Shown here: in pieces, positions 3,277 to 9,808 of the stretch
How positions within the stretch are numbered: position 1 is the stretch's first letter
Layout: the number at the start of each line of letters is the position of its first letter
Source of the DNA: a virus
IMG/VR virus record: IMGVR_UViG_3300031963_000801
Coordinates: 1-26,786 of that record
Strand: one strand, 5' to 3'
DNA: 26,786 bases
Made by a program: the position numbers and the translations under genes
Notes under the pieces: model-generated
What the model was told of the DNA's origin: nothing
Seen by the model: only the letters and a program-made list of their open reading frames with translations
The model's database searches: none

Positions 3277-3462
3277 GTGTCCGCAGCTCCCTCACCGGCA
3301 CCCGTCCGCAAGCGGGCCCAACGGCGCACCATCACCCTTGACCTCCCCGATGAGCAGGTCAACTGGCTCGACGCCCAAGCCGGCGACGTCATGTCTCGCT
3401 CAGCCTTCGCCCGGGTTCTCATCGCCCGCGCCATGCAGGCCGACGCTTCACCCGCGGCCTGA
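3277..3462 (+). CDS. small ribbon-helix-helix (CopG/Arc-like) DNA-binding protein
   Basis: This 61-aa basic protein has an N-terminal charged tail (VRKRAQRR), then a beta strand TITLDLPDEQ and two helices (VNWLDAQAG, SRSAFARVLIARAMQ). That is the strand-helix-helix order and size of CopG/Arc/MetJ repressors, which dimerise and insert the strand into the DNA major groove. The start is GTG. Its stop codon overlaps the ATG of the primase-helicase gene (TGATG), so the two are coupled. It lies at the divergent early control region and may autoregulate it. It could also assist replication initiation, as it is encoded directly upstream of the primase. Confidence 0.65.
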   Translation: MSAAPSPAPVRKRAQRRTITLDLPDEQVNWLDAQAGDVMSRSAFARVLIARAMQADASPAA

Positions 3463-6131
3463 TGCCTCCCTCCCGATCGCTCGACGCAGCCGATGGCCGG
3501 TGGTTCGACATCCTCACCACCCTCGGCGGAATCCATGCCGACTATCTGCAGGATCGCCATGGGCCCTGCCCGCTCTGCGGCGGTGAGGATCGCTTCCGAT
3601 GGGACGACCTCGACGGCAAAGGCGGCGGCTACTGCAACCAATGCGGCGGACCCCACCAATCAGGCGGCGGCATCTCCGGTATCACCCTCCTCATGCGAGC
3701 CCGGGACTTGACCTTCAAGGATGCCGCCCGTGCTGTTGAGCAGCACTTAGGTCTCCCCTCACCGGCCCGGCCGTCATCAAGCACGCCACCGCCTGCGCCA
3801 CCACGTAAGCCCAGGCGCCCGGCACGCATCCCCGACAAACCCCCAGCCGACGCAACACCCCCAACCCTCGATGGCGCCGTTGCGCAGTGGCCCTACCGCG
3901 ACGACAACGGTGATCAGCTCTTCTGGATCCAGCGTGTCAACCTCGCCACCGGCGGCAAGCTCTTCATCCATCGCACATGGATCGATGGCCGCTGGCATCG
4001 GCCCTCAAAGCGCGATCCCTTTACCTCCGAATGGCCCTCACCTCGCCCCCTCTACAACCTCCACCTCCTCAAGCAGCACCCAGACCTCCCGGTGCTGCTG
4101 ACCGAAGGCGAGCAAACCTGCGACGCTGCCGCTCGCCTCTTCTCCCCCTCCGTTCTTTGCCTCGCCTGGCCCAACGGATCGAAGGCCATCGATCGCGTTG
4201 ACTTCACACCCCTCGCCGGTCGCAAGGTCACCCTCTGGCCTGATGCCGACGACGCCGGCCGGCTCTGCATGGCCAAACTCGCCCCCATCCTCCTCGCCGC
4301 AGGTGTCACCCGGGTCCGCATCGTTCAACCCCCCACCGACGTCCCCAAAGGCTGGGATCTCGCCGATGCCACCGACTGGGACACCGAACGCGCTCGCGCA
4401 CACGTCGCCGCGCATCGATCTGATCCCATCACTCTGCCGGAACCCAAACCCGAACCGGAGCCAGAGACGGACAACACAGATCGAGTCATAGGCGACCTGC
4501 CCAAGTACACACCCTTCACCTGCCTCGGCTTCGACGGTGACGCCTACTACTACCAGCCCGCCAACACCGGTCAGGTCATGCGCCTCACCGGCGCCGGCCA
4601 CTCCTCCACCAACCTCCTTCGCCTCGCCACCATCGCCTACTGGGAAACCCTCTACCCAGCCAAAACCGGCGTCTCATGGAACTCCGCCGTCTCTGACCTC
4701 TTTGCTCAGCAAGCCGCTGTCGGCATCTACTCCCCCGATCGCATCCGTGGCCGCGGGGCATGGTGGGATCAAGGTCGCTCCGTCCTTCACCTCGGCGATC
4801 GTCTCATCGTTGATGGCGCTACACATTCCGTCATGGCTCCCCCGCCATCGCGGTTCTCCTATCAACGTCTCGCCGCAGTAGACATCCCCGATACCCTCGC
4901 TCCACTCACCGATCAGCAGGGCGCCGAACTCCTCGACATCGCTTCCCGCTTCCACTGGGAAGTCCCCGCCTCTGGGCTCCTCCTCGCCGGCTGGACTGCC
5001 CTCGCCCCCATCTGCGGCGCCCTCTCTTGGCGCCCGCACGCCTGGCTCACCGCTTCCCCGGGTTCCGGTAAGTCCGCCATCCTCGATCGCTTCCTCGGCA
5101 CCCTCCTTGATTCCATGGCCCTATGGCCTGAGGGCACCACCACCGAAGCATTCATCCGCCAGGAACTTCGCGCCGACGCCATCCCCGTCGTCTTTGACGA
5201 GGCCGAATCAAACGAAAAGGCAGACCAGCAGCGCATTCAGAACATCCTCGCCCTAGCACGCGTCGCCTCCTCCTCCGGTCGTGGTGTCATCGGCAAAGGC
5301 GGAGCCGATGGTGCAGCGCAACGCTTCACCATTCGCTCCATGTTCCTCCTCTGCTCCGTCTCCACTGCCCTCAAGCAAGGCGCCGATCAGTCACGCTTCG
5401 CTCAGCTCACACTACGCAACCCCAACCACCTGCCCAAGTCCGAACGCATCGCCCACTGGAACAACCTCGACCGTGATCTCACCGACATCATCACGCCAGA
5501 GATCGGTCATCGCCTCATCCTACGTTCCGTTCGCCTCATCCCCATCATCCGCGATTCCGTCGCCGCCTTCCGTCGCGCTGCCGCCGATCGCTTCGACTCT
5601 CAGCGGCAGGGCGATCAATACGGCACCATCCTCGCCGGTGCATGGTCCCTCATGAACTCCACCGTCGCCACCATCGATGATGCCTATGCCCTCATCGATC
5701 AAAACGACTGGGAATCCTACCGAGAAGCCACTGAACTCCCCGACGAGCATCAGTGCCTCCAGGCCATCCTCCAGCATCAGATCCGCGTCGAAGGTGACCG
5801 CGGCTCTGCCTTCACCCGCACCGTTTCTGAACTCATAGACCTCGCCAGCCCCGCCTCCCTCACCACCTCCATGGAGGTGTCCCAGAACCAGGCCCGCGCC
5901 CACCTCGGTCGCATCGGCCTCAAGGTTGACCATGTGGAAAACGCCCTCTGCCTCATGGTCCACAACCACGCGATCGCGTTACGCCGCATCCTCACCGATA
6001 CCCCCTGGGCGCACTGCTGGCCCACCGTGCTCCGTCGTCTGCCCGGTGCATCCAAGGCTCCCGTAACACGCTTCATCGGCCAGGCCACGGTCGCCCGCGC
6101 AACAGCCGTTCCCCTCGCTTCCATCGGCTGA
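3462..6131 (+). CDS. P4-type primase-helicase (zinc finger, TOPRIM, DUF927-like ATPase)
   Basis: This 889-aa multidomain replication protein carries a zinc-binding primase module at residues ~14-95: C36-x2-C39 (CPLCGGEDRFRW) and C58-x2-C61 (CNQCGG), then a helical segment. A TOPRIM-like domain spans ~205-300, with VLLTEGEQTCDAA at ~210 and LWPDADDAG at ~258 supplying the acidic metal ligands. A C-terminal ATPase of the DUF927/P4-helicase type has Walker A TASPGSGKS at ~530 and Walker B PVVFDEAE at ~575. The layout parallels phage P4 alpha protein, which primes, unwinds and binds iterons in its own origin. The gene begins with ATG overlapping the preceding stop and ends ten bases before the GTAAC-box array at 6141-6440. 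Two further boxes lie inside its 3' end (5978, 6064). Its coding strand is strikingly C-rich, unlike the late genes. Confidence 0.88.
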   Translation: MPPSRSLDAADGRWFDILTTLGGIHADYLQDRHGPCPLCGGEDRFRWDDLDGKGGGYCNQCGGPHQSGGGISGITLLMRARDLTFKDAARAVEQHLGLPSPARPSSSTPPPAPPRKPRRPARIPDKPPADATPPTLDGAVAQWPYRDDNGDQLFWIQRVNLATGGKLFIHRTWIDGRWHRPSKRDPFTSEWPSPRPLYNLHLLKQHPDLPVLLTEGEQTCDAAARLFSPSVLCLAWPNGSKAIDRVDFTPLAGRKVTLWPDADDAGRLCMAKLAPILLAAGVTRVRIVQPPTDVPKGWDLADATDWDTERARAHVAAHRSDPITLPEPKPEPEPETDNTDRVIGDLPKYTPFTCLGFDGDAYYYQPANTGQVMRLTGAGHSSTNLLRLATIAYWETLYPAKTGVSWNSAVSDLFAQQAAVGIYSPDRIRGRGAWWDQGRSVLHLGDRLIVDGATHSVMAPPPSRFSYQRLAAVDIPDTLAPLTDQQGAELLDIASRFHWEVPASGLLLAGWTALAPICGALSWRPHAWLTASPGSGKSAILDRFLGTLLDSMALWPEGTTTEAFIRQELRADAIPVVFDEAESNEKADQQRIQNILALARVASSSGRGVIGKGGADGAAQRFTIRSMFLLCSVSTALKQGADQSRFAQLTLRNPNHLPKSERIAHWNNLDRDLTDIITPEIGHRLILRSVRLIPIIRDSVAAFRRAAADRFDSQRQGDQYGTILAGAWSLMNSTVATIDDAYALIDQNDWESYREATELPDEHQCLQAILQHQIRVEGDRGSAFTRTVSELIDLASPASLTTSMEVSQNQARAHLGRIGLKVDHVENALCLMVHNHAIALRRILTDTPWAHCWPTVLRRLPGASKAPVTRFIGQATVARATAVPLASIG

Positions 6132-6268
6132 GATCCCTTGCGCCGCAACGGTGTTACGCCGTTACAGCCCCTGTAACGCTGTTACCACCCCTGTAACACG
6201 CAAATCGACTGCGCCGCAACGGTTCTCGGCGGTTGTTACGCTGTTACGCCCAAAACCGCCCAGGGAGT

Positions 6269-6324
6269 CATACGTGCACGTGTGTGCGTGTGTGCGTGCA
6301 TGTGCGCGTGTGTGCGCACGCGTA
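6269..6324. repeat. 56-bp alternating purine-pyrimidine (Z-DNA-prone) tract
   Basis: Every step from 6269 to 6324 alternates pyrimidine and purine, mostly TG, CG and CA dinucleotides, without a break. Such tracts can flip to Z-DNA under negative supercoiling. It lies between the two iteron clusters. No protein-coding reading is likely here. Confidence 0.85.
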
Positions 6325-6346
6325 TCTATCTATCTATTTCTCTTTA
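6323..6346. repeat. TATC tetranucleotide repeat and pyrimidine AT-rich tract
   Basis: Almost four TATC units (6323-6337) run into a TTTCTCTTTA tract. Only 5 of these 24 bases are G or C, in surroundings well above 60% GC, so this is the most easily melted spot of the region. It directly follows the alternating tract and precedes the second iteron cluster, as expected for a DNA unwinding element. Confidence 0.6.
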
Positions 6347-6567
6347 GGTGTAACAATGTAACAACAGGGGTCCCAGCCCAGTCGTGCCAACGGTTTTCGG
6401 TGTTACACCAGGCGTAACACCGGCGTAACACCTGTAACAGCCCTCCAGAAGCCCCTGCAAGGCCCTCAACCCCCTGTCACGCCCTTCCGCCTGCTCGCCG
6501 CCTTCCGCCCCGCTCCCAGCGCTCCTGACCGCAACCGGGAACCCTGATCACAGACAACCCGCACCCC

Positions 6568-6856: not shown

Positions 6857-7357
6857 GTGTCGCAAGCCGCAGCTATCACCACAAGAACCGGCAGGCGCCG
6901 CAAGCTCACCCCTGAGCTGATCGCCAAAGTCCGCGACCTGGTGCCTTCCGGCGCCCCTGACAAGACGATCGCCGCAGCCTGTGGCATCACTCATCAGGCA
7001 TGGTGCCTATGGCTCAAACGAGCAAGAGACGGCGTTGGTGATGAGCTTGAGCGCGAATTATTTGAAGCTGTTCAACAAGGCCGCGCACAAGGTGAGCTAA
7101 CACATATACAAAAGATTTTTGCCGGAGACTCCAAAGACTCGCAGTGGCTCCTCACCCATTCCCCCCACTGGCGCCATAACTGGAGCGACAACGCCGCTGC
7201 GCAACGTGCAGTGCAACGGCAGATGGATGGCGTTGTTGCCGCGATCGAATCCACGCAGTCGCTGAGCACCGAACAGAAACACGACCTGTTGCTTCAGTTG
7301 CAGGCTCGTGGCCTCGGTGGCGTGTTGCCGCAGGTTGAGGCCGATGCTGGCACTTGA
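6857..7357 (+). CDS. terS: terminase small subunit
   Basis: This 166-aa protein has an N-terminal HTH (RRKLTPELIAKVRDLV ... DKTIAAACGITHQAWCLWL), then a helical oligomerisation segment and a C-terminal tail (STEQKHDLLLQLQARG). That is the usual order for small terminases, which recognise the packaging site and hand DNA to the large subunit. The start is GTG, immediately after a hairpin. The end overlaps the large-subunit gene by 14 nt. From about 7050 the DNA becomes noticeably more AT-rich than its surroundings. Assignment rests on the HTH plus position directly before the large terminase. Confidence 0.78.
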   Translation: MSQAAAITTRTGRRRKLTPELIAKVRDLVPSGAPDKTIAAACGITHQAWCLWLKRARDGVGDELERELFEAVQQGRAQGELTHIQKIFAGDSKDSQWLLTHSPHWRHNWSDNAAAQRAVQRQMDGVVAAIESTQSLSTEQKHDLLLQLQARGLGGVLPQVEADAGT

Positions 7358-8951
7358 TCCGCTCGCGGCAGGCATTGCACGGCAGCGGCTGGCGTTGAAG
7401 CAGTCGCGCACGGAGGACAGAACTTATGATGTCAGCTTTGGTGATCATATTTATAATGTTTACCCCAAGTTTCCATTTACGCGCCACACTAATCGACTTA
7501 TTGAAATTGGGCAGAGGGTTTTTGATGGTGAGATATCGCGGACGCTTTTGATGCTTCCGCCTCGGCATTACAAATCAACTGTTTTCAGCCGCTTTGGGCC
7601 ATCGTATTTTTTGCGTCGGCATCCTGAGCGCACTTGGGCACAGGGGGCCCATACGCAAAATCTGGCAGCCGAGTTTGGAAAAGCCGCCCGCGATTATTTT
7701 GTGGCCGCTGGTGGAGCGCTTGATTTTAGCAGTTCTGGCAAACTCCGCTGGACTATTGCCAACACACTTGGCGGATTCTGGGGTGCGGGTGTTGGCGGTG
7801 GGACCGGCCTTCCTGGAAACTTCATTAACATCGATGATCCGATAAAGAACCGCGAAGAGGCTGAAAGCGCGGCATACAGGAGGAAAACTCAGGACTGGAT
7901 TCTAAACGTGATGTTTGCTCGCGAAGAACCAGGGTGCGGCAAGCTCATCACTCATACCAGATGGGCAGATGCCGACGTGATTGGCTGGCTTTTGAGCCAA
8001 GTGGAGGAGCTTGAGAGAGATGGCAACGCCGACGCTGCCGAACCATGGCATGTGATTGAGTTGCCGCTGATTGCTGAGCCTATCCAAGTCGCGATGCCTG
8101 CATCGGTGACACGTGAGCGAGATGATCGACTTCCAGGCCAGGCGCTGGATCCCACGCGATATGACGAGGAATGGGCACGGAAAAAACGTCTCAACCTGCC
8201 TGACCGCGACTGGGCAGCGCTTTACCAGCAGCGGCCGACTCCAAGCGGCGGCACGGTGTTCAACGGTGCCATGCTGCGGTTCTACGGCACCAAGGATCGC
8301 CCGGGCCATGAAGGCGATGCAATCCTGCCTGATCGATTCATTCGCAAGGTGGCATCGATTGATTGCACCTTCAAAGACAACCCGGGAACGGACATGGTGG
8401 CGTTCCAGAACTGGGGGCAGACTAATGCGGGGGTGTGGCTACTTGATCTAATGAATCAGCGGATGGATTTTAGCGACACAATGGACGCAATTAAAGCGAT
8501 GTGGCCTGCATGGCAGTTTGGCGAACTGCTGGTGGAAGATAAGGCCAACGGGTCGGCGGTGGTGTCTGTGTTGAAACGCGGAGCCCAGAACTTCCTGCTG
8601 CACGCAATAGAGCCGGACGGTGGCAAGGTGGCTAGGGCGAATGCGACGACACCGCAATTCAATCAGGGGCGTGTGTTCCTCCCCCGCTGGCACCCGCTGA
8701 CGCCGTTGCTGGTAAGCCAGCTTCTCAAGTTTCCGGGGGATACATACGACGACCAAGTGGACGGGCTGACACAGCTGATTAACTACGTCGCCGGCACCGG
8801 CCCCATGCGCGTGACGACCGTTCAATGGGGCTTCGGCGCCGACCAAGGTCCAATGCCACCGGCAACACCGACCACGGGCCACGGCGAGCGGCGGATCCTT
8901 GAGGGGATGCCGGCGATCCCGGACCCGGATGATGAGTCCTTCTACGGATAA
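7344..8951 (+). CDS. terL: terminase large subunit
   Basis: This 535-aa packaging motor has a Walker A-like MLPPRHYKST at residues ~70-79, Walker B FINIDDP at ~160-166, and a coupling-type THTRWADADVIG motif. The C-terminal RNase H-like nuclease carries acidic residues in VASIDCTFKDN (~336), LLVEDKANG (~395) and YDDQVDGL (~468). Terminase large subunits cut concatemeric DNA and drive it through the portal using ATP. The frame opens at 7308, but the ATG at 7344 is preceded by TTGAGG at good spacing and gives the normal length. The first ~600 bases are richer in A/T and use more T-ending codons than the rest, suggesting mosaic ancestry. The next gene starts 5 nt after the stop. Confidence 0.93.
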   Translation: MLALDPLAAGIARQRLALKQSRTEDRTYDVSFGDHIYNVYPKFPFTRHTNRLIEIGQRVFDGEISRTLLMLPPRHYKSTVFSRFGPSYFLRRHPERTWAQGAHTQNLAAEFGKAARDYFVAAGGALDFSSSGKLRWTIANTLGGFWGAGVGGGTGLPGNFINIDDPIKNREEAESAAYRRKTQDWILNVMFAREEPGCGKLITHTRWADADVIGWLLSQVEELERDGNADAAEPWHVIELPLIAEPIQVAMPASVTRERDDRLPGQALDPTRYDEEWARKKRLNLPDRDWAALYQQRPTPSGGTVFNGAMLRFYGTKDRPGHEGDAILPDRFIRKVASIDCTFKDNPGTDMVAFQNWGQTNAGVWLLDLMNQRMDFSDTMDAIKAMWPAWQFGELLVEDKANGSAVVSVLKRGAQNFLLHAIEPDGGKVARANATTPQFNQGRVFLPRWHPLTPLLVSQLLKFPGDTYDDQVDGLTQLINYVAGTGPMRVTTVQWGFGADQGPMPPATPTTGHGERRILEGMPAIPDPDDESFYG

Positions 8952-8956
8952 CGATC

Positions 8957-9808
8957 ATGACCGCAACCGCCGCTCCACTCGCCCGCCGCGGCGCCCGCAG
9001 CCTCAAAATCAGGGGCGCCCCTGAGATGCCGGCTGATGCTGCGCTCGGGAAGTTCCCACCGCCGACGGACATCAGTGAGCAACTGGTAGCCGACAACCTC
9101 AAGCTCGCATTTTCCCGCGCCAACCGATATGCCGGCAGGACGCGGATGCCGTTGGATGAGTTGGAGGCTGCCGCGTTCGTCGGGCTGATGAATGGTGCAC
9201 GGCGGTTCGATCCGTCTCGCGGGTGGAAGTTTTCCAGTTGCGCCGTGCCCTTCATCGATGGCGCGATCCTCCGGTTCCTCAGGGACAAGGGTCACGCGAT
9301 CAAGTTCCCTGTGAGATGGAGGGAACACGGCCCGAAGGTGCGGAAGCTGATCGAACAAGGCGCTTCCGTGGCCGAGATTGAACAGCAGACCGGGATGGAT
9401 GCCGACGAGGTGCGGGCGTTCATTCTCGCCACTGGGCCCACCAGCGAGCTTGATCCGAACATGGTCGGCCAGGCTGATCCGCTCGATTTCATCGCCGAGG
9501 AACTGCCCGAAGCTGAGGACGTGATGGGGGTGATGGAACAGGCGCTGCGGAAGATGCTGCCGGCTGATGTGGCGATCCTCACCACGTACTGGGCAGATCC
9601 AGCCCGCAACAGCTACCCGATGCGGCAACTGCAGGCGCTCGATCGATGCGTGCGTCTGGTGGTAGGCCCGAACCAGCACCGACGGCCGACCGTTGCGACG
9701 GCACTCGGGTTTGAGGTGGAGATCACGCCGGTGGAGGATGCCACGCGACGGCAACGGCGCACGCGACAGGAGCTGACGACGCAGGCGGAGCAGTTGGGAT
9801 TGCTGTAG
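8957..9808 (+). CDS. phage-encoded sigma-70 family factor
   Basis: This 283-aa protein has a clear sigma region 2 at residues ~43-112. It begins LVADNLKLAFSRANRYAGR, continues LDELEAAAFVGLMNGARRFDPSRG, and ends with WKFSSCAVPFIDGAILRFLRDKG, following the classic region 2.1-2.4 pattern. Region 3-like sequence follows (IKFPVRW and the HTH GASVAEIEQQTGMDADEV). The C-terminal ~90 residues replace an ordinary region 4 with a basic, less recognisable segment (RRPTVATALGF ... RRQRRTRQEL). Such a factor would redirect host RNA polymerase to phage promoters. It sits between terminase and portal, an unusual place for a regulator. Its TAG stop is followed immediately by the first copy of the GGAAAACTGA motif. 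Confidence 0.78.
   Translation: MTATAAPLARRGARSLKIRGAPEMPADAALGKFPPPTDISEQLVADNLKLAFSRANRYAGRTRMPLDELEAAAFVGLMNGARRFDPSRGWKFSSCAVPFIDGAILRFLRDKGHAIKFPVRWREHGPKVRKLIEQGASVAEIEQQTGMDADEVRAFILATGPTSELDPNMVGQADPLDFIAEELPEAEDVMGVMEQALRKMLPADVAILTTYWADPARNSYPMRQLQALDRCVRLVVGPNQHRRPTVATALGFEVEITPVEDATRRQRRTRQELTTQAEQLGLL

Follow-up and report, generated by a model that had tools for sequence, protein, structure and literature searches.

The 300 bp that lie directly 3' of the primase-helicase gene in the DNA analyzed here (the window, 26,786 nt, a fragment of a cyanophage genome) very probably serve a tailed cyanophage as its replication origin, with the adjacent primase-helicase as the protein that recognizes them. 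Comparison with related loci shows that the sequence of the boxes repeated in this region covaries with the C-terminal wing of the protein. Besides, the putative binding domain and the box array are swapped together as a cassette of about 600 bp. These two observations give strong support to the original prediction that the gene and its site make up a single initiator-origin unit.

We found 13 GTWAC boxes within 6153-6438, where the chance expectation is about 0.14 in 300 bp. The whole window contains 34 of them against 12.9 expected, a number that none of 100 shuffles reached (shuffle maximum 23). Since GTTAC is the reverse complement of GTAAC, they represent a single asymmetric site in two orientations, with the consensus [CTG]GTAAC[AG] in the window. 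The first box is located 22 bp 3' of the stop codon of the primase-helicase, as in most relatives, and two extra GTWAC (5978 and 6063) are inside the 3' end of the gene. None of the elements of the array is assigned to a strand. The left cluster has seven boxes, five outer ones (6153, 6161, 6173, 6181 and 6193; 6153..6197) with a spacing of 8-12-8-12 and an inner pair 8 bp apart (6235 and 6243; 6235..6247). Between them there is a spacer (6198..6234) with a dyad or hairpin element, degenerate here and with a covarying stem in relatives. The right cluster has six boxes: an inner pair, also 8 bp apart (6350 and 6358; 6350..6362), a spacer with the counterpart of the dyad element (6363..6401) and four outer boxes (6402, 6414, 6425 and 6434; 6402..6438). 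The inner pairs of the two clusters have opposite orientations, around a perfectly alternating purine-pyrimidine tract of 57 bp that is Z-DNA-prone (6269..6325) and the AT-rich TATCTATCTATTTCTCTTTA tract (6322..6353), a probable unwinding element whose motif adjoins the right inner pair in relatives too. The alternating tract is the only one of at least 16 bp in the window. Thus, the 13 boxes in two clusters, far above the shuffles, were confirmed as originally predicted, and so was the repetition of 8-bp and 12-bp spacings, which recur both in the window and across relatives. The perfect alternation is also there, but is 57 bp long instead of 56, and the TATC tract, claimed to be the most AT-rich spot, is indeed the AT-richest 31-40-mer but tied with another at about 7420-7450.

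We initially retrieved 80 loci from IMG/VR and 24 from cyanobacterial genomes, and the total was later extended to about 330, including repeats of the same contig. The same array architecture was found at the same place in more than 100 distinct relatives. Approximately two thirds of those with enough 3' sequence carried GTWAC arrays at the corresponding place, and in the remaining ones another box word occupied the same slots (GTAGAC, GTGAGA, GTAAGA, GGAAC, GGTAC, GCAAC or GTTAGG, among others). The word changes as a whole from one array to another, and the types found also include GTAAC, GTCAC and GGGAC. The conservation of the spacing in relatives had been proposed as a check; the distances between boxes showed peaks at 8-9, 12 and 42-45 bp. 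Boxes were about sevenfold denser inside the array than within the primase gene or upstream of it. In 57 of 118 loci (3.2 expected), the longest alternating tract was the one in the central slot of the array. Many relatives have a GA- or AT-rich slot instead, so alternation is favored rather than required, and we discarded the alternating tract as an obligatory part. The 42-45-bp spacers carry an inverted repeat with covarying arms, 82.9% of the cells being paired versus 23-47% when the arms were slid, and 8 of the 12 pairs of the stem were changed on both sides; the copy in the window is itself degenerate. A search of Rfam gave no match. These repeats (6198-6234 and 6363-6401) are possibly a hairpin or dyad site, for priming or for a second protein.

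The window and the prophage loci encode their own terminase and portal or capsid-type genes. The only chromosomal locus that was checked, L087, is a prophage with the gene order helicase, primase, terminase and sigma factor, like the window. In the window, a sigma-70 region 2 protein is encoded at 8957-9808, between the terminase and the structural genes, and this protein is also present in L087, a prophage of a cyanobacterium. In L002 a second RHH/NikA-like gene is found directly downstream of the array (179-544 after the end of the primase match), and the same happens at other loci. More distant homologues have arrays as well. The isolate phage phi1422 of Bdellovibrio has 12 GGTAAC directly 3' of the gene, in the Acinetobacter phage Acjo_20 the array is upstream of the gene and in the Serratia phage MQ-4 it is displaced 1.7 kb downstream; in the three of them the array is a leading word cluster of the genome. 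No array was found within 3 kb in four other distant homologues (Pseudomonas ZRG1 and Dolphis, Bordetella PBb001 and Microcystis Mwe-JY13).

The gene preceding the array (3462..6131, + strand) codes for a primase-helicase and putative initiator of 889 aa, with a Zn ribbon, a TOPRIM domain, an AAA+ helicase (Walker A GSGKS, Walker B VVFDEAE) and a C-terminal winged helix. It matches the Zn-ribbon model PF08273 (3.9e-12) and PHROG 35358 (1.9e-131), and is 57% identical to its counterpart in Synechococcus phage S-H1. Within the family, PF08273 was detected in 55 of 56 members and Toprim models in a part of them; no SF3 Pfam model matched either the protein of the window or the relatives. The full AF2 model (pLDDT 85) had SCCmec Cch as the top PDB match (3e-8), with NrS-1, PriRep1, SaPI Rep, the poxvirus (MPXV) E5 and TOPRIM primases among the other matches. 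Actually, the description of the protein as P4-type holds for the N-terminal Zn-ribbon/TOPRIM part, but SCCmec Cch and SaPI Rep are the closest matches to the models of the helicase and the C-terminal domain. The C-terminal winged-helix domain, approximately residues 775-889 (5784..6128, + strand), is the putative reader of the boxes. In the AF2 model of the last 200 residues (pLDDT 93.9) it finishes in a beta-hairpin with strands 864-870 and 877-884. Its structural neighbors were all weak (Z below 5), namely SaPIbov1 Rep (8tch), the relaxosome protein TcpK, SCCmec Cch and PriRep1, and Foldseek with this domain alone gave nothing significant. In TcpK it is a beta-wing placed in the major groove that binds the repeated boxes of this protein (PMC6137059). 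Free-standing copies of the binding domain, considered under the idea of an Odn-like nuclease, were not found, the sole matches that were not full length being a truncated primase and a frameshifted one.

The wing carries the motif LPGAxKxGVxRFxG, and the residue preceding the conserved F tracks the end of the box: R goes with ..AC, Y or H with ..AGA and W with ..AGG. A K located three residues before the R goes with boxes starting with GG, and was seen with GG boxes only. In the window this residue is R870, which closes the first strand of the wing as assigned by AF2 (codon 6069..6071, + strand); the residue at this position changes together with the bases that end the box. Boxes were called by degenerate patterns, as exact words mislabel the degenerate arrays of picocyanobacterial prophages and the mixed GTAAG/GTCAG arrays. 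Among 130 distinct C-termini, the automatic caller gave an AC box to 85 of 86 R cases, and the sole exception, L035, was a z-score miscall that in fact carries 13 GGGAC boxes. The correspondence was 20/20 for W and AGG, 18/19 for Y and AGA, and 4/5 for H and AGA, the H exception (L252) being a weak fit. The Y exception, L033, has a mixed array, with 8 GTGAG and 6 GTTACA boxes between -70 and +400 of the primase stop together with a Y-type wing, and is perhaps an intermediate or an origin of double specificity. A sliding-block nearest-neighbor test gave only a mild C-terminal signal, and it was the residue-level view that was decisive.

The rules of this code were written down before being applied to C-termini not seen earlier, and the box class was predicted correctly in 19 of 19 (R and AC 15/15; H and GTNAGA 4/4, one of them with a weak z). 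The start of the box was also correct, GG with K in 6/6 and GT without K in 9/9. Two loci fall outside this prediction, L289 for being a fragment and L311 for having a residue that the rules do not cover. The latter has S in the wing (SNSESF) and GTGAGA boxes, beyond the four-letter code. Before these rules were written, two loci that apparently had no array, L034 and L035, had been noted to carry a GKVRF motif that predicted AC boxes starting with GG, and 14 and 13 GGGAC, respectively, turned up at a distance of 1.2 kb (1.0-1.5 kb past the primase stop). These displaced arrays have the full architecture, including an alternating tract of 71 bp, and are separated from the initiator gene by inserted genes. 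The best natural pair, L280 (GPTHF, GTAAG) and L285 (GPTRF, GTAAC), have proteins 88% identical (94 of 110 residues in the domain), and 10 of the 13 boxes show the matching G/C swap, always at one position of the box. Outside the boxes the identity was 84.5%, with only 6 G/C differences in 233 bases. Given that this domain has other differences between the two loci, the comparison implicates the wing residue rather than proving its role.

Exchange of the whole module is also observed. L053 and L133 have flanks with about 90% identity, and from 300 bp before to 300 bp after the stop they diverge, with identities mostly of 43-55% (one 100-bp block has 74%). The divergent stretch corresponds to the binding domain and the array, and the box types are different. 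L019 and L043 display a similar exchange, with the RHH gene conserved.

That members of one clade have both box and wing in common could be taken as shared ancestry only, with no functional matching between them. We consider this extremely improbable. Over a tree built without the C-terminal domain we counted 14 residue changes, 14 box changes and 15 joint ones, against at least 32 when the box labels were shuffled; these counts are indicative, the tree being approximate. The cassette swap between flanks of about 90% identical DNA, the base swap in most boxes of L280 and L285 and the success of the rules written beforehand all speak against mere descent. Another candidate to explain the boxes is a small ribbon-helix-helix-like protein of 61 aa, identified by iterative HMM and alignment, whose gene (3277..3462, + strand) overlaps the primase start. 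The boxes would then be its operator, repressing the operon or neighboring genes. Proteins of this type often bind short tandem boxes, and by iterative HMM nearly every relative with enough upstream sequence had the gene immediately before the primase, although the copy in the window had no Pfam match. In L032, L046, L048 and L075 an unrelated small ORF (66-117 aa) takes its place. As a reader of the boxes we rejected it, since the box type does not track the RHH sequence: L019 (GTAAC) and L043 (GCAAC) have near-identical RHH proteins and different boxes, L074 and L077 have a common box and different RHH, and four GTGAG loci possess the array with no recognizable RHH upstream. A role of the boxes as operators upstream of the operon was also discarded, as they are not enriched there (3.2 per kb versus 24.8 in the array). 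The operator explanation is therefore very unlikely, and binding of the boxes by the RHH protein only, which the original prediction had put forward as the finding that would go against an origin, is disfavored by the same near-identical proteins and by the full arrays without a recognizable RHH. This protein is probably an autoregulator or copy control element.

Part of the data would also fit a site for partition, packaging or recombination, whose reader could be the primase-helicase or another protein. The terminase genes are just downstream of the array, and the covariation is compatible with a parS-like or packaging role of the same protein-site pair. However, covariation and cassette swap link the array to a primase-helicase, its center is AT-rich, its layout matches the known PICI origins (PMC6092414) and it is found away from the gene in Serratia MQ-4 and in L034 and L035. 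We find such a site without origin function quite unlikely. GC skew, suggested as a check, gave a mixed answer and was rejected as proof of an origin. The minimum in the window is at 7205, about 0.8 kb from the array, and a turning point near the array is also present in Acjo_20 and MQ-4, but in S-H1 and phi1422 no such turning point is found there. At 7000-7200 of the window the skew changes sign though both flanks have their genes on the + strand.

As a replication origin, the array would work as follows. The C-terminal winged helix would bind each GTAAC box, with the bases being read by the beta-wing: R870 may contact the G opposite the final C of the box, and the residue three positions before (K in the GG types) the second base. 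The two opposed clusters would load two helicase assemblies around the AT-rich and alternating center, which would melt, and the TOPRIM part would prime afterwards, possibly at the dyad elements. Origin specificity might then be a short evolvable code. A single substitution in the wing (R, H/Y, W; V to K) would define a new box word; the dozen or so copies in the array would then be rewritten base for base, or domain and array would be swapped as a cassette. This would generate mutually non-recognizing origin types, perhaps under the pressure of rival phages, satellites or origin-targeting nucleases. We consider this evolutionary scenario about as likely as not. In any case, these loci, which number in the hundreds, provide a large natural data set for initiator-origin co-evolution: there are around ten box types, some natural pairs are near-minimal, and the code that links residue to base is readable. 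The sequence alone is enough to read how a protein would recognize the DNA at a virus replication origin, the origins and box types of uncultured phages can be predicted from the protein, and direct tests become possible of origin specificity, of incompatibility and of the capture of origins by satellites.

Several known systems have some of these features. The alpha protein of phage P4 is a multifunctional Zn-ribbon primase-helicase that recognizes origin iterons. It resembles the protein described here in the N-terminal Zn ribbon and TOPRIM primase (the PF08273 match), but SCCmec Cch is the closest match to the model of our helicase, and neither the box code nor the layout of the array is the same. 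The short iterons of geminiviruses match specificity residues of the initiator Rep (the iteron-related domain), but that Rep is an unrelated protein, a rolling-circle HUH initiator found in plant viruses. The archaeal plasmid pRN1 (orf56-orf904) has a small regulator, a primase-helicase with a C-terminal winged helix and an essential site 3' (PMC4234260). The gene order is the same as here, but the enzyme has an archaeo-eukaryotic primase and an SF3 helicase, and the origin is a 100-nt stem-loop instead of box clusters. In the Vibrio cholerae PLE satellites, the DNA-binding domain of RepA varies together with the origin, and both are exchanged as one module on an otherwise retained protein, maybe driven by an origin-cutting phage nuclease, ICP1 Odn (PMC8263062). 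The exchange of initiator domain plus origin is thus common to both, but PLE uses a RepA_N initiator and three iterons of about 30 bp in a handful of elements, and we found no residue-level code reported for the RepA-ori pair. The closest parallel is with the PICI satellites, in which two sets of iterons flank an AT-rich region 3' of the initiator gene (PMC6092414) and, in SaPI Rep, the C-terminal domain recognizes the iterons (as mentioned in PMC7581432, citing Ubeda 2007). Here too the array is immediately 3' of the initiator gene and the C-terminal domain weakly matches the structure of SaPIbov1 Rep (8tch). The differences are that the present unit belongs to tailed phages and prophages with their own terminase and portal or capsid-type genes, includes a Zn-ribbon/TOPRIM primase in the same protein and a small RHH gene before it, and is characterized by a wing code of one residue, by dyad elements and, frequently, by an alternating tract. 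The original prediction took the arrangement as one not recognized from phages, and we did not find it described for phages like these, but the iteron layout was already described for PICI satellites (PMC6092414). By this comparison, the system would work as a SaPI-type unit in phages and not in satellites, the code and the partner domains being new. It is most likely a SaPI-like initiator-origin unit of tailed phages with an unusually legible specificity code, so that a layout described as unique to PICIs is also present in tailed phages.
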